From Halorussus rarus (GTDB taxonomy: Archaea; Halobacteriota; Halobacteria; Halobacteriales; Haladaptataceae), in the NCBI RefSeq assembly GCF_003369835.1, contig NZ_QPMJ01000001.1, forward strand, positions 434,001 through 498,000: a stretch of 64,000 nt of DNA, written 5' to 3'. A model generated the notes under the pieces. It saw only the letters and a list, made by a program, of their open reading frames with translations. It did no database searches and was not told the origin of the DNA. The position numbers and the translations under genes are program-made. The number at the start of each line of letters is the position of its first letter. Position 1 is the stretch's first letter. Positions 7,275 through 21,004 of the stretch are shown here, one piece after another.

Positions 7275-8048
7275 CTACTGGTCGGGCATGAAGTCGTGGT
7301 CGACGTCGCCGGTGAACTCCCTGGCGACGAACTCGTTGCGGAGCGTGCCCACCCCTTCGATCTCGACCTCGACGGTGTCGCCGTCGCTTATCGGCCCGAC
7401 GCCGGACGTGGTGCCCGTCGCGATGACGTCGCCGCGTTCGAGCGTCATCAGCTCGGTGATCTCCTCGATAAGCTCCGGGACGGAGAAGATCAGGTTGTCG
7501 ACGGTCGATTCCTGCTGGACCGCCCCGTTCTTCCGCAGTTCGATGGCGGCGTCGTCGGGTACCCGGTCGGGGGACGCGACGACCGGGCCGATCGGCGCGG
7601 CGTTGTCGAACGACTTCCCGCGGATCCAGTTCTGCTCCTCGCGCTGGTCGTCTCGGTTCGAGAGGTCGTTGACGCAGGTGTACCCCGCGATGACGTCGTC
7701 GGCTCGGTCGGCCGAGACGTTCCGGCACTGCTCGCCGATGACGACGCCCAGTTCGGCCTCGTGGTCGATGCGCTCCTTGTCCTCCGGGAGCGCGATGGTA
7801 TCGCCGTGGGCCGCGAGCGCGTTCGGCGCCTTGAGGAACAGCAACGGTCGGTCCGGAATCTCCGAGTCGGTCTCCTCGGCGTGGTCGCTGTAGTTCAGTC
7901 CGATACAGACGATCTTGCTCGGCTCGACCGGCGGGAGCACCGTCACCTCGTCGAGGCCGTACCGTCGGTTCGCGAACACCGCTTCCCCCTCGTCCCATTC
8001 CCCGAGACGGACCGAACCGGCCGGGTCTCGGAATCGAACGTGTTGCAT
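7275..8048 (-). CDS. Fumarylacetoacetate hydrolase (FAH) family protein, 257 aa, copy 1
   Basis: FAH-fold enzymes hydrolyse or decarboxylate 2-oxo acids of aromatic and sugar-acid breakdown using a divalent metal. The metal-site segments are visible: HEAELGVVIGEQC (two Glu ligands) and CVNDLSNRD (Asp ligand), plus the opening motif IVCIGLNYSDHAEE. The length is that of single-domain acylpyruvase-like members. The ATG at 8048 (MQHVRFRD) matches the paralog at 17837-18568 and has a TATA 26-37 nt upstream; a longer upstream frame is rejected. It is the third gene after AKR and MFS on this strand. The exact substrate cannot be read from sequence. Confidence 0.9.
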   Translation of the reverse strand: MQHVRFRDPAGSVRLGEWDEGEAVFANRRYGLDEVTVLPPVEPSKIVCIGLNYSDHAEETDSEIPDRPLLFLKAPNALAAHGDTIALPEDKERIDHEAELGVVIGEQCRNVSADRADDVIAGYTCVNDLSNRDDQREEQNWIRGKSFDNAAPIGPVVASPDRVPDDAAIELRKNGAVQQESTVDNLIFSVPELIEEITELMTLERGDVIATGTTSGVGPISDGDTVEVEIEGVGTLRNEFVAREFTGDVDHDFMPDQ

Positions 8049-8073
8049 GCCAACAGCCCCCACTACTGACCGG

Positions 8074-8085
8074 GCCAAAAAGATT
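8074..8085 (-). promoter_or_regulatory. Core promoter of FAH copy 1
   Basis: AAATCTTTTTGG on the minus strand, 26-37 nt before the ATG, suggests FAH copy 1 has its own leaderless promoter and is not only read through from the MFS gene. Confidence 0.4.
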
Positions 8086-8142
8086 TGCCCGCAGTCGCGG
8101 CTCAGCCGGACGCTTGGAGGGCACCACTCGACAGCGACCGGT

Positions 8143-9441
8143 TCAGTCGGTGTCCGCGACGGTCGGCGCCCGCTTGGCGTAGACACGTTCGTTCAACAGC
8201 AACGCGATCGGAACGGCGGACGCGAGGACGACCCCGGCGAGCACGGCGAACGCGACGCGGAGGCCGACGATCTCGGCCACGTACCCGACCGCCGGGGGCG
8301 AAATCGACGCCGCAACGAGCGCCCCGGTCCAGAGGTAGCCGAAGGTCCGCCCCTCGCGCTCGGGCGGGGTGATGTCGCTGACCAGGGCGTCCCGCGCCGG
8401 GTTCTGGCTGAACAGGCTCGCGCCGAGAACCGCGAAGACGACGAACAGTCCGACGGGCGAGAGGGGCAACGCGGAGAGGACCGCCAGCGCGACCGTCGCG
8501 ACGAGGAGGTAGCCGATGACTATCTTCCGACGATCGAACCGATCGGCGAGCACGCCGGTGCCCAGTTGGGCCAGCCCGGCGACGACCAGTAGCGACGAGT
8601 AGTAGAAACTGGCGGTGGACTCGGGCGCGAGCGTCGTCCCGAACGCCGAGACGCTGAACCCGTATATCGACGCGACGAACTCGGGGAGGAAGACGGTGAC
8701 GCCGTTGGCGGCCATGATCTGGACTGCGAAGTAGGCGAAGATGGCGATCATCGGGTACCGGTACGCGCGGCTGTCTCCGCCGGTCCGGGCCTCCGCGGAC
8801 GCGTCGGGATCGGCGTCCACCGGCCTGGTCTCGAAGGAGCCGAGAACGACGAAGAGGGCGGCCGTGAAGGCGAGCGCGAGCCCGCCGAACAGCCCGAGGA
8901 TGGCGGTCCACGGCAGGACGACGAGCAGGACGCCGACCGCCGCCGGGGCCAGCGCGTCGCCGAACTTGGACGCGCTCCCCCACATTCCGAGGACTCGCCC
9001 CTTGTCGGCCGCGTTCACGTTCACCGTGATGAGCGGGTATCCCGACGGGTGCACCGTGCTCGACCCGAATCCGGCGACGAGCATGGCCGCCAGCATCGCC
9101 AGGAGGCGACCGTCCGCGTCGTATCCGAGGACGGCGACTCCGACGCCGAGCGGGGTGACGGTCGGGACCGTCGCGAGGATCAGCACGCCGACGCCCATCA
9201 CGCCCAGGCCAGCCGAGAGCAGGTACCGCCGGTCGTACCTGTCGGAGAGGACGCCCATCGGCGCCTGTCCGAGCGCGGAGCCGAACGAGTGGGCGCCGAG
9301 GAGCAGGCCGAGCTGCCAGAGCGGGTAGCCGAACGCCGCCGCCCAGACCGGGATCAGCGGCGGGAAGACGCGCTTCAACAGGTGGTCCACGCCGTGGACA
9401 CCGCTGACGACGAACGCGAACAGCAGTTCCCGGCGGTTCAT
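8143..9441 (-). CDS. Major facilitator superfamily transporter, 432 aa
   Basis: About twelve hydrophobic segments and the MFS loop motif GVLSDRYDRRYLL after helix 2 identify a secondary transporter of the plasma membrane. The N-terminus (GVHGVDHLLKRVFPPLIPVW) resembles the fosmidomycin-resistance/sugar-efflux branch. A charged loop near the middle (VDADPDASAEARTGGDSRAY) separates the two six-helix halves. It lies between an AKR gene and FAH copy 1 on the same strand, with gaps of about 95 nt each side. Uptake or efflux of a 2-oxo-acid-type metabolite would fit, but the substrate is unknown. Confidence 0.88.
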   Translation of the reverse strand: MNRRELLFAFVVSGVHGVDHLLKRVFPPLIPVWAAAFGYPLWQLGLLLGAHSFGSALGQAPMGVLSDRYDRRYLLSAGLGVMGVGVLILATVPTVTPLGVGVAVLGYDADGRLLAMLAAMLVAGFGSSTVHPSGYPLITVNVNAADKGRVLGMWGSASKFGDALAPAAVGVLLVVLPWTAILGLFGGLALAFTAALFVVLGSFETRPVDADPDASAEARTGGDSRAYRYPMIAIFAYFAVQIMAANGVTVFLPEFVASIYGFSVSAFGTTLAPESTASFYYSSLLVVAGLAQLGTGVLADRFDRRKIVIGYLLVATVALAVLSALPLSPVGLFVVFAVLGASLFSQNPARDALVSDITPPEREGRTFGYLWTGALVAASISPPAVGYVAEIVGLRVAFAVLAGVVLASAVPIALLLNERVYAKRAPTVADTD

Positions 9442-9537: not shown

Positions 9538-10356
9538 TCACCAGTCCGGGGCATAGGGATTGTCGTACTGGCGCTCCTCGCGGTCGATCGAGTCGATTCT
9601 GTCGACGTCCCCGTCGTCGAGTTCGAGGTCGCGCGACCCCCAGTTGTCGCGGATGTGTTCGCCGCCCGTGGCCTTGGGGATGGCCGCGACGCCCTTCTCG
9701 CGCAGCCACGCGAGGCTGACCTGCGCCTCGCTGACGCCGTGCTTCTCGCCGATCTCGCGGAGCTCCGGCACCTCGAACACCCGACCGTTCCCGAGCGGGG
9801 CGTAGGCGACCAGGTCCATCCCGTGCCGGTCGCAGTACTCCCGCAGCGCCTCCTGCTGGAGGAGCGGGTGCATCTCGGCCTGGACCGCGGAGACGGGCAC
9901 GTCCGAGGTCTCGCGGGCCTCGTCGACGAGCTCGGGCGTCATGTTGCACACGCCGAGGCGGTCGAACGCCCCCTCCTCGTGGAGGCGCGCGCAAGCCGCG
10001 AAGGTGTCCTCGGGGTCGTAGTCGCCGCCCGGCCAGTGGACGCCGTAGAAGAGCTCGACCGAGTCGACGTCGAGGCGGTCGAGGCAGCCCCGGCCGCTCT
10101 CGACGATGCCCTCGGTCGAGTAGTCGTCGGTGAACTTCGGGTGCAGGACCTTCGTGGCGAGCACGACGTCTTCTCGCGACACCTCGCTCGTCGCCACTCC
10201 GTTCCCGACCGCCTCCTCGTTGCCGTAGGCCTCCGCGGTGTCGACGTGTCGGTACCCCGCTGCCAGGGCGGTCCGGACGCTCTCGGCGCACCGGTCTGGA
10301 TCGTCGTTCCGGTACGTGCCGAGCCCGAGCGTCGGTATCTCCGGTCGGGTCGCCAT
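9538..10356 (-). CDS. Aldo/keto reductase, 272 aa
   Basis: This is an NAD(P)H-dependent aldo/keto reductase of the TIM-barrel family. The catalytic Asp and Tyr are in VDTAEAYGNE, Lys in LATKVLHPK and His in FYGVHWPGG. The C-terminal cofactor region contains AIPKATGGEHIRDN. The ATG at 10356 gives the family start MATRPEIPTLGLGTY; the in-frame ATG 21 nt upstream has no support. It heads the leftward AKR-MFS-FAH group. A second AKR of the same subfamily lies at 56902-57735. Confidence 0.92.
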   Translation of the reverse strand: MATRPEIPTLGLGTYRNDDPDRCAESVRTALAAGYRHVDTAEAYGNEEAVGNGVATSEVSREDVVLATKVLHPKFTDDYSTEGIVESGRGCLDRLDVDSVELFYGVHWPGGDYDPEDTFAACARLHEEGAFDRLGVCNMTPELVDEARETSDVPVSAVQAEMHPLLQQEALREYCDRHGMDLVAYAPLGNGRVFEVPELREIGEKHGVSEAQVSLAWLREKGVAAIPKATGGEHIRDNWGSRDLELDDGDVDRIDSIDREERQYDNPYAPDW

Positions 10357-10486
10357 AGCCACGTCAATAGATAACAATTGCCAAAAGCGTTTCCCCGTCG
10401 GGGAACCGGCGCGGCGACCGACAGCGCTCGCGACGCGTCAGGTCGTCAACCGATAGCCGGTTCCCGGTCACCGGTGTTGCTCGCGG

Positions 10487-10524: not shown

Positions 10525-11181
10525 ATGTCAACAAGCAACTCGCTATTCGCAGCGAGCGTCCTGACCGTCGTCGACGAGACCGCGACGACGACCGGGGAGT
10601 TCGAGGACGCGGTGGGGGAGTACGCGACCGAGTTCGAGGGGTGCGACGCCGACGGCCTGGCAGCCGCGGTCCGGCGCCGGGTCGACGACGAGGAAGTGGC
10701 CGAGCAGTTCGCGGCGCTCGGTGCGGCGGACCCGCGGACCGTCGCCGAGCTGTGTGCCCTCGCCGATCGCGTGGAGGCGACGGAGGACGAGGAGTGGCTA
10801 CAGCTGCTCCCTCCGTTGCGGCTGTTCCGGGACGACGACGTCAGGGCCGAGGGCGCTCCCGATCCGTTCGTTCCGGTGCCGGCCGACCACCTCCCGAAGC
10901 TGACGCGGGTGTACTCGCCGTCGGTGGTCTACGCCTGGCTCGACGACTCGCGGAGCTGCGAGCTGGCCCGGCGCGACCTCGAGGAGGTCTTCGCGGAGCC
11001 CCGGGAAGTGATGCCGTTCGCCGTCTACGGCCCGGCCCACCGGGAGTTCCTCGAGCGGGAGTACGACCTCACCGCGGGACCGGCGCTGCTGTTCGTGCGC
11101 GACGGAACGGTCGAGGCGCGACTGTACGGCGCCCACGGCACCGCCACGGTCGAGGCGGAGCTGGAGCGCCACTGCGCATGA
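10525..11181 (+). CDS. Uncharacterised protein with a thioredoxin-like C-terminal half, 218 aa
   Basis: I do not recognise the full-length family. Residues 1-100 are acidic and helical. Residues 130-218 look like a thioredoxin fold: beta strand SPSVVYAWL, a helix starting where the CxxC would be (DDSRSCELARRDLE, only one Cys), MPFAVYG, and a cis-Pro-like turn TAGPALLFVRDGTV. The missing second Cys argues against disulfide exchange by the usual mechanism. The start is set by a TATA box about 30 nt upstream. It lies between the two transport groups of the island, and no partner is evident. Confidence 0.7.
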   Translation: MSTSNSLFAASVLTVVDETATTTGEFEDAVGEYATEFEGCDADGLAAAVRRRVDDEEVAEQFAALGAADPRTVAELCALADRVEATEDEEWLQLLPPLRLFRDDDVRAEGAPDPFVPVPADHLPKLTRVYSPSVVYAWLDDSRSCELARRDLEEVFAEPREVMPFAVYGPAHREFLEREYDLTAGPALLFVRDGTVEARLYGAHGTATVEAELERHCA

Positions 11182-11263: not shown

Positions 11264-11332
11264 ATGCACCATATCATGACCGTCGACGGAGAGGCCGAGT
11301 ACTGCGTGCCGGCGTCGTGGGGGATGCGATGA
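11264..11332 (+). CDS. 22-aa leader ORF coupled to the first permease gene
   Basis: MHHIMTVDGEAEYCVPASWG is followed by MR and a stop. The TGA at 11330-11332 overlaps the permease ATG at 11329 (ATGA). The TATA box upstream is spaced for a leaderless start exactly at this ATG, so ribosomes would enter here and reinitiate at the permease. It is not a known protein. It may be a coupling device or the remains of an older start. Confidence 0.4.
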   Translation: MHHIMTVDGEAEYCVPASWGMR

Positions 11333-12231
11333 GCGTCGCCGAACAGTTCGAAGCGTACCGGGAGAGCGACCTCGTGGTCATCGCCCGGCGGACGCTTCGG
11401 AACCTCCTCTCGGAGCGGATCACCCAGTTCGCGTTCGCGGTCCTGGTCGGGATCCTGATTCTCGGCGTCGTCGGACCGATGATCGCCCCGTACCAGTACA
11501 ACGAACAGCAGACGACCGCCGACGGGGAGCTGATGCGGTACGAACCGCCGTCGCTCGACCATCCGCTCGGCACCAACGACCGGGGGGAGGACGTGCTCTC
11601 GCGGCTCCTGATCGGCGCGCGGACGACGCTGATCACGGGGCTGCTCGCGGGCGGGCTGATGATGACCGTCGGGCTGTCGGTGGGGATGACCGCCGGGTAC
11701 GTCGGGGGGAAGACCGAGAGCTTCCTCATGCGACTGGTCGACTTCATGTACGGCATCCCGTTCATCCCGTTCGCCATCGTGCTCATCACGTTCTTCGGGG
11801 CGGGCTTCTACACCACGATCGCGATCCTCGGGCTCGTCCTCTGGCGGTTCATCGCCCGGGTGATCCGTTCGCAGGTGCTCCAGATCAAGCAGCGGCCGTA
11901 CATCATGGCCGCGCGGGCCTCCGGCGCGAGCACTCTGTGGATAATGCGCAAGCACATCCTGCCGAACATCGCGAACATGGCGGCGCTGTTCTTCGCGATG
12001 GGGGTCGGGCTGGCGATACTCGAGCAGGCCGGCCTCTCGTTCATCGGCGTGACCGACCCGTTCACGCCGACGTGGGGCATCATGATCCGTAACGCCAACC
12101 AGGCGGGCCGGGTCGCCGACGCCTGGTGGTGGTCGTTCCCGCCGGGCATCATGATCGCGCTGACCGTCCTCTCGCTGTACCTCCTCGGACGGGGCTACGA
12201 GGGCGGCGGCGACGACGAGGTGGTGGTCTGA
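11329..12231 (+). CDS. ABC importer permease, DppC/OppC type, 300 aa
   Basis: This is a membrane component of a peptide/opine/nickel-type (PepT family) ABC importer. It has an N-terminal OppC segment with one TM helix (about 35-55), the conserved HPLGTNDRGEDVLSRLLIGART box after the loop, five further TM helices, and the EAA coupling loop (RASGASTLWIMRKHILPNI). The ATG at 11329 is chosen because it overlaps the stop of the leader ORF. The two ATPase genes follow immediately. Unusually, its partner permease B comes after the ATPases rather than before. Confidence 0.92.
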   Translation: MSVAEQFEAYRESDLVVIARRTLRNLLSERITQFAFAVLVGILILGVVGPMIAPYQYNEQQTTADGELMRYEPPSLDHPLGTNDRGEDVLSRLLIGARTTLITGLLAGGLMMTVGLSVGMTAGYVGGKTESFLMRLVDFMYGIPFIPFAIVLITFFGAGFYTTIAILGLVLWRFIARVIRSQVLQIKQRPYIMAARASGASTLWIMRKHILPNIANMAALFFAMGVGLAILEQAGLSFIGVTDPFTPTWGIMIRNANQAGRVADAWWWSFPPGIMIALTVLSLYLLGRGYEGGGDDEVVV

Positions 12232-12232
12232 C

Positions 12233-13276
12233 GTGTCCGACCCGATACTCGCGTTCGAGGACGTCGACATCCGCTACCGGACCGACGGGCCCGACGACGT
12301 CCACGCGGTCAACGCCGCCTCGTTCTCGATCGAGGAACACGACTACTTCGGGCTGGTCGGCGAGAGCGGCTGCGGAAAGAGCACCATCGCCGACGCCATC
12401 GTCGGCGGCCTCGACGACAACGGCGAGGTCGCCTCGGGGACGATCCGGTACAAGGGCGAGCCGATCCAGGACTACTCCGAGTCGGAGTTCAACAAGAACA
12501 TCCGCTGGAAGGAGATCTCGGTGATCCCCCAGTCGTCGATGAACAGCCTCGACCCCGTGATGAAGCTGAGCGAGCAAGCAGTCGAGATGGCGAAGTACCA
12601 CACCGACCTCACGACGCCCGAGGCGCTCGACCGGCTCCGCGAACTGTTCGACGTCGTCGGGCTGTCGGAGTCCCGGATCGACGACTACCCCCACCAGTTC
12701 TCGGGCGGGATGCAGCAGCGCGCGATCATCGCGTTCGCGCTGTTCCTCCGGCCCAGCCTGATCATCGCGGACGAGCCGACGACGGCGCTCGACGTCATCA
12801 TGCAGGACCAGATCATGGACCACATCAACGGCCTGAAGGACGACTGGAACGTCAGCATGCTGCTCATCACCCACGACATCTCGCTGGTGTTCGAGAACTG
12901 CGACTCGATGGCGGTCATGCACGGCGGCCAGATCGCCGAGACGGGCACCGTCGAGGACGTGTTCGACCGCCCGCGGCACCCGTACGCGATCCTCCTCCAG
13001 AACGCGTTCCCCGACGTGCGGTACCCGGACCGCGAGCTGGCCGTGATAGACGGCCACCCGCCCCAACTGCGCGACGAGGTGGACTTCTGCACGTTCGTCG
13101 ACCGGTGCCCGTGGGCCGTGTCCGCCTGCCGCGAAGGGGCGCCCCCGGCGAACCCCGTCGCCGGCGACGAGGACCACCTCGCGTGGTGCGTCCGGGCCGA
13201 CGAGATGTCGGAGCTGGCAGGCGAGTACCTCGACCGCTCGACCGAGTCGACGAGCATCCTGGAGGGGGAGGGATGA
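12233..13276 (+). CDS. ABC importer ATPase, DppD/OppD type, 347 aa
   Basis: One of two cytoplasmic ATPases of the importer. Walker A GESGCGKSTI (about 41-50), Q-loop VIPQSSMNSLDP, signature FSGGMQQRAIIA and Walker B LIIADEPTTALD are all present. The C-terminal OppD extension has the Cys cluster FCTFVDRCPWAVSAC seen in [4Fe-4S]-binding OppD/DppD proteins. The start is GTG two bases after the permease stop. It overlaps the following ATPase gene by 4 nt. Confidence 0.94.
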   Translation: MSDPILAFEDVDIRYRTDGPDDVHAVNAASFSIEEHDYFGLVGESGCGKSTIADAIVGGLDDNGEVASGTIRYKGEPIQDYSESEFNKNIRWKEISVIPQSSMNSLDPVMKLSEQAVEMAKYHTDLTTPEALDRLRELFDVVGLSESRIDDYPHQFSGGMQQRAIIAFALFLRPSLIIADEPTTALDVIMQDQIMDHINGLKDDWNVSMLLITHDISLVFENCDSMAVMHGGQIAETGTVEDVFDRPRHPYAILLQNAFPDVRYPDRELAVIDGHPPQLRDEVDFCTFVDRCPWAVSACREGAPPANPVAGDEDHLAWCVRADEMSELAGEYLDRSTESTSILEGEG

Positions 13277-14352
13277 GCGACGACGAACCGGTCTTTGAGC
13301 TGCGGTCGCTGGAGAAGTACTTCGACACGACCTCGGGGCTGGTCGAGACGATCAGGAACCGGCTCGCCGGCGGGGGACCGCGCCTGGTGCGGGCGGTCGA
13401 TGACGTCGACCTGACGCTGCAGGAGAACCAGGTCCAGGGCGTGATCGGCGAGAGCGGCTGCGGGAAGACGACCCTGCTCCGGACCCTCATCGGGCTCTAC
13501 GAGCCGACCGGCGGCGAACTGCGGTTCCACGGCCGACCGACCTCGGAGTTCACCAAGAGCGACTGGAAGGAGTTCCGCCAGCAGGTCCAGATCGTCTTCC
13601 AGGACCCCTTCAACTCTCTTGACCCGAAGTTTAGCGTGCGCCGCACCCTGGCCGAGCCCCTGCAGATCCACGGCATCGACTACGACCGCACCGACATCGA
13701 GGAGATGCTCGAGACCGTCGGACTGACGCCGGCGGACCAGTACATCCGGCAGTTCCCGAACCAGCTCTCCGGGGGGGAGAAACAGCGCGTCGCCATCGCG
13801 CGGGCGCTGATCACCGAGCCCGACGTGATCCTGGCCGACGAGCCGGCGTCGATGCTCGACGTGTCGACGCAGGCCGAGATCCTGAACCTCCTGAACGAGC
13901 TGACCGACGAGTTCGGCGTGTCGATGGTGTACATCTCTCACGACCTGTCGACGGTGTCGTACATCTGCGACCGGATCAACGTGATGTACCTCGGTCGAAT
14001 CGTCGAGAAGGCGCCGACCCGTGAGCTGCTCGCGGACCCCAAACACCCCTACACCCAGGCTCTGATCCGCTCCATCCCGATTCCGGATCCCCACTACGAG
14101 CGCGAGCAGGCGACCATCGGCGGCGAGCCGGGCGATCCGATAGACATGCCGGAGGGATGTCGGTTCAAGAACCGCTGCCCCGAGCGGATGGACGTCTGCG
14201 ACCGGACGCCCCTCGACGTCGCGCCCGACGGCGACGAGACCCGTTCGGTCGCCTGCCACCTCTACTACGACCACGAGGAGGAGGCCGAGCCCGAGATGAT
14301 CGAACGACCGAGCGACGACCCCCATCCGAGCAGTGCGGAGGACACGGTATGA
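13273..14352 (+). CDS. ABC importer ATPase, DppF/OppF type, 359 aa
   Basis: The second ATPase. Walker A GESGCGKTTLL, Q-loop IVFQDPFNSLDP, signature LSGGEKQRVAIA and Walker B VILADEPASMLD are intact. The C-terminal extension again holds a Cys motif (CRFKNRCPERMDVC). The ATG at 13273 overlaps the previous stop (ATGA); a longer upstream frame belongs to the shadow of DppD. Its own stop overlaps the ATG of a 37-codon ORF, so the whole set is translationally chained. Confidence 0.94.
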   Translation: MSDDEPVFELRSLEKYFDTTSGLVETIRNRLAGGGPRLVRAVDDVDLTLQENQVQGVIGESGCGKTTLLRTLIGLYEPTGGELRFHGRPTSEFTKSDWKEFRQQVQIVFQDPFNSLDPKFSVRRTLAEPLQIHGIDYDRTDIEEMLETVGLTPADQYIRQFPNQLSGGEKQRVAIARALITEPDVILADEPASMLDVSTQAEILNLLNELTDEFGVSMVYISHDLSTVSYICDRINVMYLGRIVEKAPTRELLADPKHPYTQALIRSIPIPDPHYEREQATIGGEPGDPIDMPEGCRFKNRCPERMDVCDRTPLDVAPDGDETRSVACHLYYDHEEEAEPEMIERPSDDPHPSSAEDTV

Positions 14353-14462
14353 TCAGAGACGCGTCACACCCGCCGGGCGGCAGCGAGACGGATCGGACGC
14401 CGAACGACGGCTCGCCGCCCGCCGGTGGGACGGCGTCGCCGCGGGGAGGTGAGCGCCCGTGA
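14349..14462 (+). CDS. 37-aa linker ORF between DppF and permease B
   Basis: It starts at the ATG overlapping the DppF stop (ATGA, 14349-14352) and its TGA overlaps the GTG start of permease B (GTGA, 14459-14462). The peptide begins MIRDASHPPGGSETDRTPND and is rich in Pro, Gly, Ser and Asp, so probably unstructured. The double overlap makes it more likely to keep ribosomes moving across a 106-nt gap than to encode a folded protein. No family is recognised. Confidence 0.45.
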   Translation: MIRDASHPPGGSETDRTPNDGSPPAGGTASPRGGERP

Positions 14463-15460
14463 GCCGCCTGCGGTACTTCGCCCGACGCACGGCGGTGACG
14501 GCGGTGCTCATCTTCCTCGTCGCGACCGCGCTGTTCCTGTTCTTCCGGTTCATGCCGGGCGACTACACCTCGCTGCTGGTACAGCAGGGGATGGACCCCG
14601 AGCAGGTCGAGGCGCTGGAGCGCAAGTGGGGCCTTGCCGCGCCGCTGCACGTCCAGTACGTCCGCTACATCGTGAACCTCATGACCGCGGACGTCGGTCA
14701 GTCGTTCCGCTACGGGGAGCCCGTCTGGGACCTGGTCTGGCCCCGGATCCTCAACTCGTTCGTGCTGGTCGCGCCCGCCATCACGGCGACGTACATCATC
14801 GGCGGTATCCTCGGCGCGATCATGGGCTGGCGCCGCGGCGGGTACTTCGAGAAGACCGGGATCATCAGCGTCTCGGTGTTCCACTCCATCCCCGACTTCT
14901 TCCTGGGCATCATCCTGATCGCAGTGTTCTCCTCGTCGCTTGGCATCTTCCCGACGTCGGGGATGCTCTCGGCGCCGACGATGATCATGATCGAGGACCA
15001 GCCGTACTGGCACCGGTTCCTGCTGCCGGAGTTCTGGATGCACTACGCGCTCCCGTTCGCGACGGTGACGCTGTACTTCATGCAGTACCCCGCGCTGATC
15101 ATGCGCAACAGCGTCGTCGAGGTGAGCGACCAGGAGTTCCTCCACTACCACCGGCTGAAGGGGCTCCCGCAGTCGAAGCTCCTGCGGAAGATCATCCGCC
15201 ACGCCTCCCTGCCCGTCGTCACGCTCTACCCCATCTCGCTTGCGGCCTCCATCAGCGGGCTGGTTCTGATCGAGATCGTGTTCAACTGGCCCGGCATCGG
15301 CTCGCTGCTGGTCAGTTCGGTCCTGGCGCGGGACTTCCCGGTCATCCAGTTCGTGTTCCTCGTCGCCGCCGTCTGGGTCATCCTGGGGAACTTCCTCGTC
15401 GACCTGCTCTACGGGGTGCTCGACCCCCGCGTCTCCGTCGGAGAGGGCGAAGCCGAGTAG
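14459..15460 (+). CDS. ABC importer permease, DppB/OppB type, 333 aa
   Basis: The second membrane subunit. The N-terminus RYFARRTAVTAVLIFLVATALFLF is the first TM helix, followed by the OppB-type segment LFFRFMPGDYTSLLVQQGMD and ALERKWGLAAPLHVQYVRYI. Five more TM helices and the EAA loop (HRLKGLPQSKLLRKIIRHASLPV) follow. The GTG start overlaps the stop of the small ORF. In most operons of this family B precedes C; here the order is C-D-F-B. Confidence 0.93.
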   Translation: MSRLRYFARRTAVTAVLIFLVATALFLFFRFMPGDYTSLLVQQGMDPEQVEALERKWGLAAPLHVQYVRYIVNLMTADVGQSFRYGEPVWDLVWPRILNSFVLVAPAITATYIIGGILGAIMGWRRGGYFEKTGIISVSVFHSIPDFFLGIILIAVFSSSLGIFPTSGMLSAPTMIMIEDQPYWHRFLLPEFWMHYALPFATVTLYFMQYPALIMRNSVVEVSDQEFLHYHRLKGLPQSKLLRKIIRHASLPVVTLYPISLAASISGLVLIEIVFNWPGIGSLLVSSVLARDFPVIQFVFLVAAVWVILGNFLVDLLYGVLDPRVSVGEGEAE

Positions 15461-15639
15461 ACCGGCCCTACCCGGACCCGGCGCCGAATCGGGGGACCCG
15501 ATTCGACACCCGGAGCGATGCCGTGCGACGCCGCAGTTCGTCAGCGTCGGGTCCGGGACGGACAGAACGCTCCGAACGTCCGACCGCCTCCCCTCGGCGT
15601 GGCCGGCGGAGCGACGGATCGCTCCTGTCGAGATGCGTC

Positions 15640-15740
15640 ACATCATCTATAACTTACATAGAATCGCGATACGATTTATCGGAATCGGAGAAATTAAGCG
15701 TCGATACATGTTCAATGTCACCGGTATTCTTTTAATATCC
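15640..15740 (+). promoter_or_regulatory. AT-rich regulatory region and promoter of the substrate-binding protein
   Basis: About 100 bp of unusually AT-rich DNA ends in TTTTAATAT at 15730-15738, 21-29 nt before the ATG at 15759, indicating a separate strong promoter. An operator-like inverted repeat CGATA-N5-TATCG lies at 15667-15681. A separate promoter would let the binding protein be made in excess over the transporter. Confidence 0.5.
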
Positions 15741-15758
15741 TGAGTAGATGTGTGGTCC

Positions 15759-17570
15759 ATGCCAACAGATGGCAAGCAAGAGGGGGTTGACAGGAGGAGA
15801 GTCCTGCAAGTAATCGGCGCCGCGTCGGCCGCCGGTTTGGCCGGGTGCACCGGCGGGGGACAGCAGGAGACGACGACCGACGGCGGGGGGCAAGAGACGG
15901 GGACGACGACCGACGGCGGAGGGGGTGGCGGTCTGGGCGAGCGCGTACCGACCCTGACGTTCCAGTACTGGTCCGATCAGGGGCCGCCGACGGTCCTGTT
16001 CGAGGAGACCATCTCGAACATCCAGTCGGTCGCCTCGGATCTCGGCATCCAGATCGAGACCCAGCCGATGACGACGGCCCAGGGGATCACCGCGGTCGGC
16101 GACGACGTGCGGGAGTTCCACGTCGCGGTCAACAGCCACGGTCCCGACCCCGGGAGGCTCGACCCCAACAATCTGCTGCAGTCGTACAGCATCGGCCGCG
16201 CGGGCGCGAACGGGGAGTACAATCCCTCGAACTACGCGAACACGCAGTTCTCGGAGCTGGCCAACCAGCAGGAGAGTATCGGCGTCCCCGAGGAGCGCCG
16301 ACAGGTCGTCGGCGAGGCGATGAGCATCTACTCGGAGGACATGCCGTTCATCCCGACGATAGAGCGGCCGACGACGGCCGCGATCAACACGGACATGGTC
16401 CAGCCCATCGAGGCCGGTGGCGCGGGGCTGTCCGCGGTCAACTGGGCCGCGCTGGTCGAGAGCGGCGCTCAGACTCAGCAAGGGACGGACACCATCCTGG
16501 GGAACCTCCCCGGCGAGTTCCTCACCAGCAGTTTCTACCCGACCGTCGGCGACACCGACTCGCTGGGGCTGTACACCCAACTGACGCACTCGCCGCTGAT
16601 GTTGTACAACTCCGACTACGAACGGGTGCCCGTGCTGGCCGATGGGCTCGGGGAGGTTTCCGACGACGGAACGGAGGTCACGTTCACCCTGCGGGACGCG
16701 ACCTTCCACAACGGTGACCCGGTGACGCCCGAAGACGTCAAGTGGACCTACGAGTTCCTGGCCGCTCAGTATCACGAGGGCAACTACCAGTGGACCGCAC
16801 TCCCCGCGGAGCTGACCGTCGAGGTCGTCGACGACAGCACGGTCAAGTTCGTCACGCCGGAGCCGTCGCCGACGCTGGTGACGGCCCAGTTGCCGACGTT
16901 CGGCGTGTTGCCCCGGGACCCCTACGTCGAGGCCGGTATCGAGGAGAACCCGACCGACTTCGACGACCCGATGATCGGCGCCGGTCCCTACCAGATCACG
17001 CAGTACAACAATCAGGAGAACATCGCACTGGAGCCCCACGACGGGAATCCCCAGTTCGAAGTCCAATCGCCGATGATCCTGTCGATATACGACAGCGTCT
17101 CCGCGGTACGCCGGGCGTTCGAGAACGGCGAACTCAGCATCGCGGTGACGCTGACGCCCGACGCCGGCCGCCAGATATCGAACAGCATGGGCGACACTGC
17201 CCAGATCGTCAACGGAGCGGCGTTCCTCCCGTTCGGGATGATGCCCCAGATGTCGTACGCGCCGGGGATGTTCCGGGAGTTCCGCCAGGCGCTGTCGTAC
17301 GCAGTCGACCGGCAGGGCCTCAACGACACCTACGCGTTCGGCGAGTCCGACGAGGTCGTCTACGGCACGTTCAACTCCCAGCAACACCCGTGGTACGACG
17401 AGGACAACCTCACCAAGGTCGGCAAAGAGACCCGCGACGTGGAGGCCGCACGCCAGGCCCTCTCGGAGGCCGGTTGGGGATGGGACGACCAGGGCAGGCT
17501 CCACTACCCGTCGGGTGCCGACCTGGAGGCCTGGCCGGAGGGCGAGACGCCCAATCCCGAGAACTTCTGA
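15759..17570 (+). CDS. Solute-binding lipoprotein (SBP_bac_5 type) with permuted domain order, 603 aa
   Basis: This is the extracellular binding protein of the importer. It begins with a twin-arginine lipoprotein signal (DRRRVLQVIGAASAAGLAGC, lipid anchor at Cys30) and a Gly/Thr linker to about residue 62. Residues 64-237 read like the domain normally found at the C-terminus of this family (LTFQYW, a two-domain crossover strand, DPGRLDPNNLLQ, NPSNYANTQFSELANQQE, MPFIPTIE). Residues 240-603 read like the normal N-terminal and middle parts (SDYERVPVLADGLGEVSDDG, LRDATFHNGDPVTPEDV, FRQALSYAVDRQ, EAGWGWDDQGRLHYP). The gene ends where the usual linker to the C-terminal domain begins. Total length equals a complete protein, so the pieces are reordered, not missing. 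An alternative GTG start 9 nt upstream is possible. Confidence 0.88.
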   Translation: MPTDGKQEGVDRRRVLQVIGAASAAGLAGCTGGGQQETTTDGGGQETGTTTDGGGGGGLGERVPTLTFQYWSDQGPPTVLFEETISNIQSVASDLGIQIETQPMTTAQGITAVGDDVREFHVAVNSHGPDPGRLDPNNLLQSYSIGRAGANGEYNPSNYANTQFSELANQQESIGVPEERRQVVGEAMSIYSEDMPFIPTIERPTTAAINTDMVQPIEAGGAGLSAVNWAALVESGAQTQQGTDTILGNLPGEFLTSSFYPTVGDTDSLGLYTQLTHSPLMLYNSDYERVPVLADGLGEVSDDGTEVTFTLRDATFHNGDPVTPEDVKWTYEFLAAQYHEGNYQWTALPAELTVEVVDDSTVKFVTPEPSPTLVTAQLPTFGVLPRDPYVEAGIEENPTDFDDPMIGAGPYQITQYNNQENIALEPHDGNPQFEVQSPMILSIYDSVSAVRRAFENGELSIAVTLTPDAGRQISNSMGDTAQIVNGAAFLPFGMMPQMSYAPGMFREFRQALSYAVDRQGLNDTYAFGESDEVVYGTFNSQQHPWYDEDNLTKVGKETRDVEAARQALSEAGWGWDDQGRLHYPSGADLEAWPEGETPNPENF

Positions 17571-17836: not shown

Positions 17837-18568
17837 TCAGTCGAAACGGACCTCGTTCCGGAGGGTACCGACTCCGTCGACCTCGATCTCCACGCTGTCA
17901 CCCTCCTCCAGCCGACCGATGCCTTCCGGGGTCCCCGTGGCGATTACGTCGTCGGGTTCGAGCGTCACCAGCTTCGTTATCTCTTCGATGAGTTCCGCCA
18001 CCGGGAAAATCATCTTGTCGGTCGTGGCCTCCTGTCTGACCTCTCCGTTCACCCGCGACTGAACCGTCGGGTTCTCTGGCAGTTCGTCCGGCGTCGCAAC
18101 CACCGGGCCGATCGGCGCGGCGTTGTCGAAGGCCTTCCCGCGGATCCAGTTCTGCTCCTTCCGCTGGTCCTCGCGGTTCGAGAGGTCGTTGACGCACGTG
18201 TACCCCCGTATCACGCTATCGGCGTCCGACGCCGAGACGTTCCGGCACTGCTCGCCGATGACGACGCCTAACTCGGCCTCGTAGTCGATGCGTTCTTTGT
18301 CCGCCGGAAGCGTGACCGTGTCGCCGTGTCCGGCGAGCGTGTTCGGCCCCTTCAGGAACAGGAGCGGCCGGTCGGGGACCTCCGAATCGGTCTCCGCGGC
18401 GTGCTCGGCGTAGTTCCGCCCGATGCAGACGATCTTCGACGGTTCCACCGGCGGGAGCAGTCGGACCTCGTCGAGGTCGTACGTCCGCCCGGCGAAGGCG
18501 ACGCCGTCGCCGGTCCACTCACCGCGCCGTTCGCTTCCGGCCGGATCGAGAAATCTCACCTGCTTCAT
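17837..18568 (-). CDS. Fumarylacetoacetate hydrolase family protein, 243 aa, copy 2
   Basis: A close paralog of the FAH at 7275-8048. Whole blocks are the same or nearly so, for example EAELGVVIGEQCRNVS, CVNDLSNR and DNAAPIGPVVA. It has the same metal-site pattern (Glu, Glu, Asp) and the family opening IVCIGRNYAEHAAE. It is slightly shorter at the C-terminus, lacking the GDVDHDFMPDQ tail of copy 1. The ATG at 18568 (MKQVRFLD) lines up with copy 1. It follows HpcH/HpaI aldolase and amidase on the same strand, which fits a role on 2-oxo acids made by that pathway. Confidence 0.9.
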   Translation of the reverse strand: MKQVRFLDPAGSERRGEWTGDGVAFAGRTYDLDEVRLLPPVEPSKIVCIGRNYAEHAAETDSEVPDRPLLFLKGPNTLAGHGDTVTLPADKERIDYEAELGVVIGEQCRNVSASDADSVIRGYTCVNDLSNREDQRKEQNWIRGKAFDNAAPIGPVVATPDELPENPTVQSRVNGEVRQEATTDKMIFPVAELIEEITKLVTLEPDDVIATGTPEGIGRLEEGDSVEIEVDGVGTLRNEVRFD

Positions 18569-18674
18569 ACCTACTCTCGACGTCGACCGATTCGGCAAAG
18601 TATCTTCTCTATAATTATGATTCGGCGATTCCTTGTACGAAGGGCCGATTCCGGGAATCCGACGCCTCTCGACG

Positions 18675-20123
18675 TCACTTCGGATACGACTCGTCCCACG
18701 GCCGCTTGCGCTCGAAGGCGGCGCTCGCCGCGAGCACGTCGTCGTCTGCGAACCGCCCGCCGGCGACCTGCAGTCCCACTGGGAGGCCGTCGTCGGTGAC
18801 CCCGGCCGGAATCGAGGCGGCGGGATGGCCGCTCATGTTGAACGGCTGGGTGAGGACCCAGCCCCGGAGCGGTTCGACCTCGGTCCCGTCTATCTCGGTC
18901 GGATCCTCGCCGTGGGGGAACGGCGGGACCGCGAGCGTCGCCGTGGCGAGCAGGTCGTACTCGGCGAGCAGTTCCCGGAGGGCGTCGTAGATTTTCGTGC
19001 GGATGACGTCGGCGCGCTTGTACTCGCGGGTGGAGACCGCGTCGGATTCGAGGATGGTCTCGACGGTGACCGACCGGAGGCGGTCGCGGTCCGCGCCGCG
19101 AGGGTCGAGGTCGTGTTCGGCTTCGAGCGCGTCGAACAGCGCCTCCCAGCGCACCTTCGCGAACGTGTAGAACGCGTCGAGGACGTCGGCCTGTTCGAGG
19201 TCGAGGTCCGGGTCGGCGCGCTCGACCACCGCGCCGGCGCGCTCGAAGGCGTCGACGGCGTCGTCGAGGGCGGCTCGCACCCGGGAATCGAGCGGGTAGA
19301 TGCCGAAGTCCGGAGTGTACGCGATCCGCATCCCGTCTATCGCGCGTTCGGTCGCGGCGACGAAGTCGGTCCCGTCGTCGGGAAGGCTGAACGGATCGGC
19401 CGGGTGGGGACCCGTCATCACTTCGAGCATCAGTGCGGCGTCCTCGACCGAGCGGGCCATGGGGCCGAGGTGCGTGAACGGCGTGTGGTGCCCGAACGCG
19501 TCGGGACGGTTGTCGATGGGAACGCGACCGAACGACGGCTTCAGCCCGTACACGCCGCAGAACGAGGCCGGCGTCCGGATGGAGCCGCCTGTGTCCGACC
19601 CCTGTGCCAGCGGGACGAGCCGGTCGCCGAGCGCCGCGCCGGCGCCCCCGGACGACCCGCCGGCGTTTCTGTCTGGATCGAATGGAGTCCCGGTCGGCCC
19701 GACGACTCTGTTGTCGGTCGTACACCCCAGCCCGAACTCCGGCGTGTTCGTCTTGCCGATCACGACCGCGCCCGCGTCGAGGAGCCGCTCGACGAACGGC
19801 GCGTTCGCGTCGGCGACGCGGTTCTCCAGCAGCTTCGACCCATGGGTCGTGGTCACCCCGGCGACGTCGTCGAGGTCCTTGATCGCGACCGGGACGCCGG
19901 CCAGCGGCCCGGGCGGATCGCCGCGCTCGACCGCCTCGTCCACTTCCCTGGCGGTTTCCCGCGCCAGGTCGTCGGTCACCGTCACGAAGGCGTTGGTCCG
20001 GTCGTTCCGTTCGTCGATCCGCTCGAGCAGCGCATCCACGATTTCCGTGGCGGTAAGGTCGCCGTCGCGGACCCGCCGCGCCATTTCCGCGGCCGTCAGG
20101 CCATGTATCTCGGAGCCTGCCAT
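18675..20123 (-). CDS. Amidase signature family enzyme, 482 aa
   Basis: Amidase-signature hydrolases split amide bonds with a Ser-cisSer-Lys triad. Lys82 lies in VAIKDLDD, Ser157 in NAGGSSGG and the nucleophile Ser181 in GSDTGGSIRTP; all three are present. Length is normal. The sequence resembles general amidases rather than GatA, and there are no gatB/gatC neighbours. The ATG at 20123 is set by the family N-terminus; the long upstream frame is the shadow of the aldolase gene. It lies between aldolase and FAH copy 2, so it may release an acid from an imported amide or peptide-like compound. Confidence 0.93.
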   Translation of the reverse strand: MAGSEIHGLTAAEMARRVRDGDLTATEIVDALLERIDERNDRTNAFVTVTDDLARETAREVDEAVERGDPPGPLAGVPVAIKDLDDVAGVTTTHGSKLLENRVADANAPFVERLLDAGAVVIGKTNTPEFGLGCTTDNRVVGPTGTPFDPDRNAGGSSGGAGAALGDRLVPLAQGSDTGGSIRTPASFCGVYGLKPSFGRVPIDNRPDAFGHHTPFTHLGPMARSVEDAALMLEVMTGPHPADPFSLPDDGTDFVAATERAIDGMRIAYTPDFGIYPLDSRVRAALDDAVDAFERAGAVVERADPDLDLEQADVLDAFYTFAKVRWEALFDALEAEHDLDPRGADRDRLRSVTVETILESDAVSTREYKRADVIRTKIYDALRELLAEYDLLATATLAVPPFPHGEDPTEIDGTEVEPLRGWVLTQPFNMSGHPAASIPAGVTDDGLPVGLQVAGGRFADDDVLAASAAFERKRPWDESYPK

Positions 20124-20215
20124 GTCCCGTCCACGACGGCGACCCGCAAAAGGCTGTCCTCGACCGGGCGACGGGCCGGTTCCCGCCGCACGACCGCTCG
20201 GGCCCGCCTCGCCAA

Positions 20216-21004
20216 CTACTCGCTCGGCTCGACGGCCGCCGCCCGGAGGTGCTCGACCCGCTCGCCGAGTACCTCGCGGGCCGCCGAGAGCTCGTCGCCG
20301 ACGCGCACCAGCCGATACTCCTCCTCGAGCGCGGACTCGGCGGTCGCGCGGTCGTCGGCCGCACATCCCACCGGGACGTCGGCCGCGAGGCACGCGTCCC
20401 GTACCGTCGCGACGGCCTCCCGGACCTCCGGGTGGTCCTTCTCGACCGGGTGACCCAGCGCGACCGAGAGGTCGGCCGGTCCGACGAAGGCGAATCCGAG
20501 TTCGGGCACCGACAGGAGTTCGTCGATTTCCTCGAGTGCGGCTTTCGTCTCGACCATCGTTCCGACGACGATGTCCTCGTCTGCGGGTCGCGCGCCCGCG
20601 CCCCAGGCGTTCGCGCGGCCCGTCGTCGCACCGCGGCCGCCGGGGGCGCCGTCGTAGGTGAATCGAGTCGCCGAGACGACCTCCCGGAGCTGCGCCGCCG
20701 TTTCGACGTGGGGCACGAGGACTGTCCGGACGCCCGCCGCGAGCAACTTCCTGGCGGTCGTCGGGTCGGGGGCGGGCAGGCGGACCAGCGGTTCGATGCC
20801 GGCCGCGTCGGCCGCACGGGTCAGCTCGTCGACCGCGGTGCTGTCCAGCGGACTGCCGCCCAACTGTTCGAAGTCGAGCCACGCGAAGTCGAACCCGAGC
20901 GCGCCGTACACCTCGACGACCGCCGGGGACATCGTCATCGCCTTCGCGCCGATTACGGGTTCGCCCTCGTCCCACTTCCGACGGATCGTGTTATCACTTG
21001 CCAT
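20216..21004 (-). CDS. HpcH/HpaI-family class II aldolase, 262 aa
   Basis: Members are metal-dependent aldolases that cleave 4-hydroxy-2-oxo acids, giving pyruvate and an aldehyde, in aromatic and sugar-acid breakdown. Visible features are GFDFAWLDFEQLGG near the N-terminus, VRLPAPDPTTARKLLAAGVRTVLVPHVE, the metal-binding MVETKAAL and FAFVGPADLSVALG. Length is as expected. It is the first gene of the leftward aldolase-amidase-FAH group and starts near the right border of the island. Confidence 0.92.
   Translation of the reverse strand: MASDNTIRRKWDEGEPVIGAKAMTMSPAVVEVYGALGFDFAWLDFEQLGGSPLDSTAVDELTRAADAAGIEPLVRLPAPDPTTARKLLAAGVRTVLVPHVETAAQLREVVSATRFTYDGAPGGRGATTGRANAWGAGARPADEDIVVGTMVETKAALEEIDELLSVPELGFAFVGPADLSVALGHPVEKDHPEVREAVATVRDACLAADVPVGCAADDRATAESALEEEYRLVRVGDELSAAREVLGERVEHLRAAAVEPSE

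Follow-up and report, generated by a model that had tools for sequence, protein, structure and literature searches.

A Halorussus rarus substrate-binding lipoprotein with a circularly permuted cluster C fold

The gene at positions 15759-17570 of a 64,000-nucleotide stretch of the Halorussus rarus genome (hereafter the window) raises the question of whether a substrate-binding protein (SBP) of the SBP_bac_5 family can carry its segments in reverse order, as a preliminary description of the locus proposed, and whether such a protein is a one-off or belongs to a fixed haloarchaeal subfamily, a point that the description left open. Our analysis makes it very probable that the gene encodes a working, membrane-anchored SBP of a type I ABC importer whose chain represents a circularly permuted version of the cluster C fold.

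Segment order, breakpoint and predicted fold

The gene and the parts of its product are as follows.

15759..17570, + strand: permuted SBP_bac_5 substrate-binding lipoprotein, 603 aa, ATG to TGA (profile and structure matches)
15792..15848, + strand: Tat twin-arginine motif to lipobox cysteine, residues 12-30 (sequence)
15933..16463, + strand: N-terminal permuted segment (N-segment), residues 59-235, corresponding to the C-terminal third of canonical SBPs (profiles, structural alignment)
16242..16244, + strand: Thr162 in NYANTQF, a Cys in members with a tail Cys (homolog comparison)
16464..16484, + strand: short linker, residues 236-242, from ancestral C-terminus to ancestral N-terminus (rotated alignment)
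16485..17510, + strand: C-terminal segment (C-segment), residues 243-584, corresponding to the first two thirds of canonical SBPs (profiles, structural alignment)
17511..17567, + strand: new C-terminal tail, residues 585-603 (homolog alignment)

The protein begins with a twin-arginine motif, RRRVLQ (residues 12-17), and a lipobox, LAGC (residues 27-30), of which RR, A28 and G29 are invariant and C30 nearly invariant across 25 homologs. This is the combination described as typical for haloarchaeal lipoproteins, of which 78-87% of the predicted ones use Tat (PMC2945643). The normal Tat lipoprotein signal reported in the preliminary description is thus present, as are all the motifs it quoted, at the positions it gave. 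The N-segment opens with the conserved motif LGERVP and the C-segment terminates at GWGWDDQGRLHYP.

SBP_bac_5 (Pfam PF00496) is the sole Pfam family above cut-off for the 603-residue protein, which belongs to it with 165.6 bits against a gathering cut-off of 32.4. In the native sequence, the match spans profile positions 3-285 of 368 only (protein residues 290-580, E 2.3e-48), and neither the first 240 residues nor segment 59-235 alone returned a Pfam or NCBIfam match. Rotating the protein in silico by placing residues 61-242 after residue 603 yielded one SBP_bac_5 match over positions 3-361 of 368, as expected for the proposed reordering and not for a truncation. Since the accompanying gain in score is small (171.3 versus 165.6 bits unrotated), we ran independent tests of segment order.

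An N-segment profile (A1) built from 25 homologs matched the C-terminal third of SBPs in the PDB, with residues 380-502 of a DppE chain as the best hit (E 7.9e-10) and 48 chains, nearly all SBPs, at E<=1; only this family profile was significant, a single-sequence phmmer search with the N-segment being weak (E 0.17). The second part of a whole-protein profile matched the same kinds of PDB chain at about residues 20-370. Both results agree with the preliminary assignment of the front residues to the C-terminal part of SBP_bac_5 proteins and of the back residues to the canonical N-terminal and central parts. Searching with the two segments separately, a check suggested at the same time, gave the reverse of the window order in E. 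coli DppA, where local profiles placed the C-segment at 70-377 and the N-segment at 395-526 (E 3.8e-17); in OppA, the corresponding matches lie at 73-414 and 426-548. No PDB chain in permuted order was found among the best 60 of 113 whole-protein profile matches.

Extending the comparison to homologous proteins, we counted 128 in permuted order, against 57 canonical proteins in which an N-segment match could be detected in the reversed position; some of the loci are the same gene reached by two routes. Rotated permuted proteins align gap-light with canonical SBPs across the rejoined site. The protein does not follow the canonical DppA/OppA order (N-terminal lobe part, lobe II, return to lobe I) and shows the general hallmarks of circular permutation, namely swapped complementary segments, joined old termini and a coverage of about one unit. 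All parts of the SBP_bac_5 fold are present, as judged by the rotated profile coverage of 3-361/368 and the complementary structural alignments described below. The segment order in the window protein is far beyond chance.

In the domain layouts of DppA and OppA, the helix-turn '..EAGWGWDDQGRLHYP' sits inside the second lobe. Canonical chains read '..EAGY-x-dG-f-tl-..' there, with the helix leading into the next strand, and it is at this point that the permuted proteins terminate. The window protein ends with '..AGWGWDDQGRLHYP' followed by a 19-residue tail and starts, after the signal, with 'LGERVP-TLTFQYW'. Bacterial members share the same breakpoint: they end with ..GYGWDxxGRLHYP, mostly stopping almost directly past 'GRLHYP', and start with 'LGExVP..' or a similar motif behind a normal signal peptide. 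The cut therefore lies after the helix-turn '..EAGWGWDDQGRLHYP', and what was relocated comprises the back half of lobe II together with the strands returning to lobe I. The preliminary proposal that the C-terminal lobe had been moved to the front is right in that the C-terminal third now stands first, but the cut falls inside lobe II, so the moved piece is not exactly a lobe. The permuted SBP of one locus (L191, 577 codons) carries the C-terminus ESGFRYEGDTLMKPVDW in place of the usual WDxxGRLHYP, and the end motif is thus not absolute.

Structure prediction, also suggested at the outset, produced a confident AlphaFold2 model with 49 permuted homologs as input (pLDDT 94.8, pTM 0.91) and two complementary sequential alignments to canonical SBPs. 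A sequential structural aligner placed only model residues ~181-531 (protein residues 238-588) on canonical SBPs, where they fall on chain residues 1 to about 370 (Z 19.5-21.9; Foldseek was also run), and the best structural matches of the model are cluster C SBPs (Z about 20). Predicted alone, the N-segment reached a modest pLDDT of 72 (AF2). Residues 2-138 of this isolated model (protein residues 59-195) align to the C-terminal stretch that comes next in chains of the same kinds, at NikZ 326-452 (Z 7.7), AccA 359-484, CtaP 355-482 and MppA 372-497 (Foldseek was run here as well). The NikZ chain is thereby tiled by two pieces, 1-330 from the back of the protein and 326-452 from its front. For the long alignments of the N-segment, the r.m.s.d. 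is near 11 Å, which is understandable for a fragment that spans two lobes without its partner, and we regard them as support for the permutation, not as proof.

Distribution and origin of the permuted family

In a first survey, which covered haloarchaeal homologs of both segments with identities down to 28-40%, every homolog had the permuted order. A scan of a genome collection detected the same order in Paracoccus, Devosia, Roseibium, Nitratireductor, Anaerolineae/Chloroflexota, an actinomycetote and deltaproteobacterial lineages. For the genome surveys, we counted genomes in which one profile match, at strict E-values, ran through both segments in the permuted order; the resulting counts are lower bounds, with seeds included and few candidates scored per genome. 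On this basis, at least 115 of the 242 Halobacteria genomes sampled, distributed over 51 of 73 genera, have the permuted order, which answers the call of the preliminary description for a survey of haloarchaeal homologs. It was found in at least 10/240 genomes of the class of Paracoccus, at least 7/150 of the class of the Chloroflexi bin, at least 2/198 of the actinomycetote phylum and at least 4/148 of the Desulfacinum phylum. The permutation is thus rarer in Alphaproteobacteria, Chloroflexota, Actinomycetota and deltaproteobacterial lineages than in Halobacteria. The Pfam match of bacterial members is likewise truncated, covering at most 1-298/368, and plasmid copies are annotated simply as 'ABC transporter substrate-binding protein'.

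The genome of the window holds one more, distant permuted paralog and several canonical ones, paralogs having been sampled through loci. The second permuted SBP (G000:C5:137940-139541, locus L002) lies in a 662-codon frame and is without the cysteine pair discussed below; proteins of its size are common in other haloarchaea.

We computed maximum-likelihood trees, which are unrooted, from rotated permuted proteins and canonical ones. In an 80-row tree, the permuted proteins stand on one side of a branch with support 99/94. The permuted clade was recovered from the C-segment columns only, where rotation cannot matter (98/87), and from a wider set of 86 rows including E. coli DppA and OppA (100/100). 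A quick 129-row tree placed a long-branch canonical paralog (L014) inside the permuted clade; upon removal of four long branches, the clade returned with an SH-aLRT support of 98. The permuted SBPs are therefore neither a one-off nor confined to haloarchaea: they are a fixed, single-clade family reaching several bacterial phyla, which makes a single ancient origin of the permutation likely. Since SBPs of this family are generally in canonical order, we read the permuted order as derived and gained once.

The classical route to such a protein would be a tandem duplication followed by trimming or loss of both outer parts, through which the ancestral gene would have acquired new ends in a surface loop of lobe II and a short linker between its former C- and N-termini. 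The one frame of suspicious length for a tandem-duplication intermediate (L151, 985 codons) proved to be only an open frame upstream of a normal-length lipoprotein.

Other histories can be weighed against these data. The C-terminal part of one paralog could have been fused in front of the N-terminal part of another, for which the many SBP_bac_5 paralogs of haloarchaeal genomes would provide the raw material; sequence order alone cannot separate such a fusion from the permutation route. However, both segments tile the fold once, with no large overlap or gap, as a chance fusion would rarely do, and the C-segment columns alone recover the same single permuted clade as both segments together, so that we consider a fusion of two SBP fragments improbable. 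The permutation could also have arisen more than once at the same loop, in haloarchaea and in bacteria, given that the loop is a plausible permissive site and that one long-branch canonical sequence disturbed the largest tree. We judge such convergence to be quite unlikely, as the permuted rows fall on one side of a branch in each of the three trees with the supports given above, and as members have LGExVP in common at the new N-terminus and WDxxGRLHYP at the new C-terminus.

That the protein might instead be an SBP in canonical order that has gained an unrelated domain at its N-terminus and lost part of its C-terminus, as in a degenerate gene or pseudogene, is suggested at face value by the Pfam and NCBIfam scans, which show positions 3-285 only and no family for the first 240 residues. 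This reading is contradicted by the rotated Pfam match, by the N-segment structural alignment and by the reversed order on DppA. The segment profile finds 48 PDB chains, SBPs with few exceptions, and aligns to their C-terminal third; the full-length model is confident; and the gene, which has an open frame and an operon setting, is conserved in at least 115 Halobacteria genomes. An unrelated N-terminal domain on a canonical order, the outcome named in advance as fatal to the proposed permutation, is contrary to both the model and the structural alignments, and we find it scarcely credible. Circular permutation with one origin thus remains our preferred reading.

The linked importer operon and a thioredoxin-like partner

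Upstream of the SBP gene and on the same strand, the window contains a complete permease-ATPase-ATPase-permease set, preceded by a gene for a thioredoxin-like protein.

10525..11181, + strand: thioredoxin-like protein, 218 aa, linked to clade-A permuted SBPs; SxxC here, not CxxC
11317..12231, + strand: DppC/OppC-type permease (BPD_transp_1, OppC_N)
12233..13276, + strand: ABC ATPase with oligo_HPY, DppD/OppD type
13273..14352, + strand: ABC ATPase with oligo_HPY, DppF/OppF type
14459..15460, + strand: DppB/OppB-type permease (BPD_transp_1)

A Dpp-type permease lies within 8 kb at 49 of 51 sampled permuted loci, which establishes the Dpp/Opp linkage; most bacterial permuted loci have the order SBP-B-C-D-F in one direction and with short gaps. 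Together with the permease set in the window, this linkage indicates that the permuted protein is most likely the transporter's own binding protein, that is, the working SBP of the linked Dpp/Opp-family importer. An ordinary two-lobed clamshell fold is expected, in which the solute would be bound between the lobes and handed to the neighbouring permease, with the export signal and lipid anchor now fixed to another corner of the protein. Substrates of the Dpp/Opp family include peptides, metals, opines and sugars, among others, and naming 'peptide' as the ligand would therefore be a guess.

A gap of ~300 bp (window 15461-15758), AT-rich immediately 5' of the start codon, separates the last permease gene from the SBP gene, which may have its own promoter there. 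The operon is flanked by catabolic-looking genes, all on the - strand, at 7275-8186, 8143-9441, 9538-10377, 17837-18598, about 18675-20200 and 20216-21004. They comprise two genes of the FAA-hydrolase family and genes for an MFS transporter, an aldo/keto reductase, an amidase and an HpcH/HpaI aldolase, several of them named from their sequence only. FAH and AKR relatives also occur near orthologous Halorubrum and Halorussus operons, and FAH near alphaproteobacterial permuted SBPs (L082, L084, L089, L127). The flanking FAH and AKR genes may offer a hint to the ligand.

The thioredoxin-like gene is the first in the direction of the operon, and its thioredoxin-like domain is C-terminal. Among 20 members of its family, the second Cys of CxxC and a downstream Pro are invariant; the first Cys is present in nearly all and is Ser in the window lineage. 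The conserved CxxC and the downstream, putatively cis, Pro point to a thioredoxin fold. Relatives occur near 26 of 31 haloarchaeal permuted loci, at 0/8 haloarchaeal canonical loci and at none of the bacterial permuted loci. Genome-wide, at E<1e-30, matches were found in 30 of 32 genomes with SBPs of clade A, the larger haloarchaeal clade, which contains the window protein, and in 0/36 genomes without a clade-A SBP; all but one match lie close to the SBP on the same contig. We therefore reject the idea that the gene is a part of all haloarchaeal Dpp operons, given its absence from the eight canonical loci and the 36 genomes.

Most clade-A members have 'NYxNCE' in the permuted segment and a conserved Cys in '..DFPCL' ending the new tail, which in about ten proteins are the only two cysteines past the signal region. 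The window protein and its closest relatives have neither. In 69 permuted sequences, both cysteines are present in 42, and the first never occurs unless a Cys also lies within the final 40 residues. Across 30 genomes, the state of the SBP cysteine pair matches that of the CxxC in 29: 21 have both and eight, including that of the window with its SxxC, have neither; the eight probably descend from one co-loss and so count statistically as one event. The one genome that deviates (G257) is also the one with a thioredoxin-like gene unlinked to the SBP. These sequence patterns indicate that the lineage of the window lost the cysteine pair and the CxxC jointly. In another genome (G009, C1:759718-760361), the thioredoxin-like gene, already SxxC, seems split into two pieces in different frames, possibly by a frameshift.

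Tat exports folded proteins. The simplest reading would be that the thioredoxin-like protein handles a disulfide tying the new tail to the permuted segment before Tat export. We tentatively suggest, as a possibility that we hold to be somewhat doubtful in its full form, that clade A has a dedicated, linked oxidoreductase which would form or proofread this tail-segment disulfide in the cytoplasm, and that the window lineage would have lost the disulfide and the first active-site Cys, leaving a redox-dead partner.

HyaE is a thioredoxin-fold export chaperone of hydrogenase that serves a Tat substrate. The linked gene cannot be assigned to HyaE (Pfam PF07449), as its score of 13.7 bits (E 0.066) is below the gathering cut-off of 22. 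The weak similarity of the thioredoxin domain, and the prospect that both would serve a Tat substrate, may be taken as a lead. Most members of the linked family differ from HyaE in keeping CxxC and having an extra N-terminal region, and the genetic partner of the linked gene is an SBP, not a hydrogenase.

Relation to known binding proteins and implications

The closest precedent is TpMglB-2 (Tp0684), a sugar-binding protein of cluster B from Treponema pallidum that is circularly permuted and was proposed to represent 'Type Ic / Cluster Bc' (PMC4990184). Both are natural circular permutations of an ABC-importer binding protein that ordinary sequence searches miss end to end. TpMglB-2 keeps the bilobed fold and binds its ligand (PMC4990184); for the window protein, a bilobed fold is predicted. 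The two differ in cluster and in cut: TpMglB-2 is a cluster B protein (MglB, sugar-binding) with a permuted N lobe whose first strands were moved to the C-terminus, whereas in the present protein, of cluster C (SBP_bac_5), it is the C-terminal third that now comes first. They also differ in their range of organisms, the TpMglB-2 type being reported mainly in treponemes and Gram-positive bacteria. The window protein lacks the cluster B, type I, MglB-like homology that defines Type Ic / Cluster Bc and, being of cluster C and cut elsewhere, represents the same phenomenon in another cluster. It resembles DppA, OppA, NikA, AppA and AccA in Pfam family, predicted fold and transporter context, and differs from them in its reversed segment order and in the new termini in lobe II, where the lipid anchor would also sit. 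In the open-access literature, to which our search was limited (subscription papers being outside its scope), we found no description of a permuted cluster C or SBP_bac_5 protein. The clade with a covarying cysteine pair and a linked thioredoxin-like gene is new here.

Our findings extend the precedent for permutation from cluster B (TpMglB-2) to cluster C. Part of one of the commonest binding-protein families is permuted, although it is annotated plainly as 'ABC transporter substrate-binding protein', and order-dependent tools (Pfam, NCBIfam, phmmer) detect only two thirds of each permuted member. A cross-domain permutation of single origin amounts to a natural experiment on how moved termini and a moved lipid anchor bear on a clamshell receptor and on permease docking. 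The thioredoxin-like gene and the co-lost cysteine pair suggest that an archaeal lipoprotein exported by Tat may pass through a disulfide-maturation step, a proposal that can be tested, and the thioredoxin-like partner may prove to be more interesting biology than the permutation itself.
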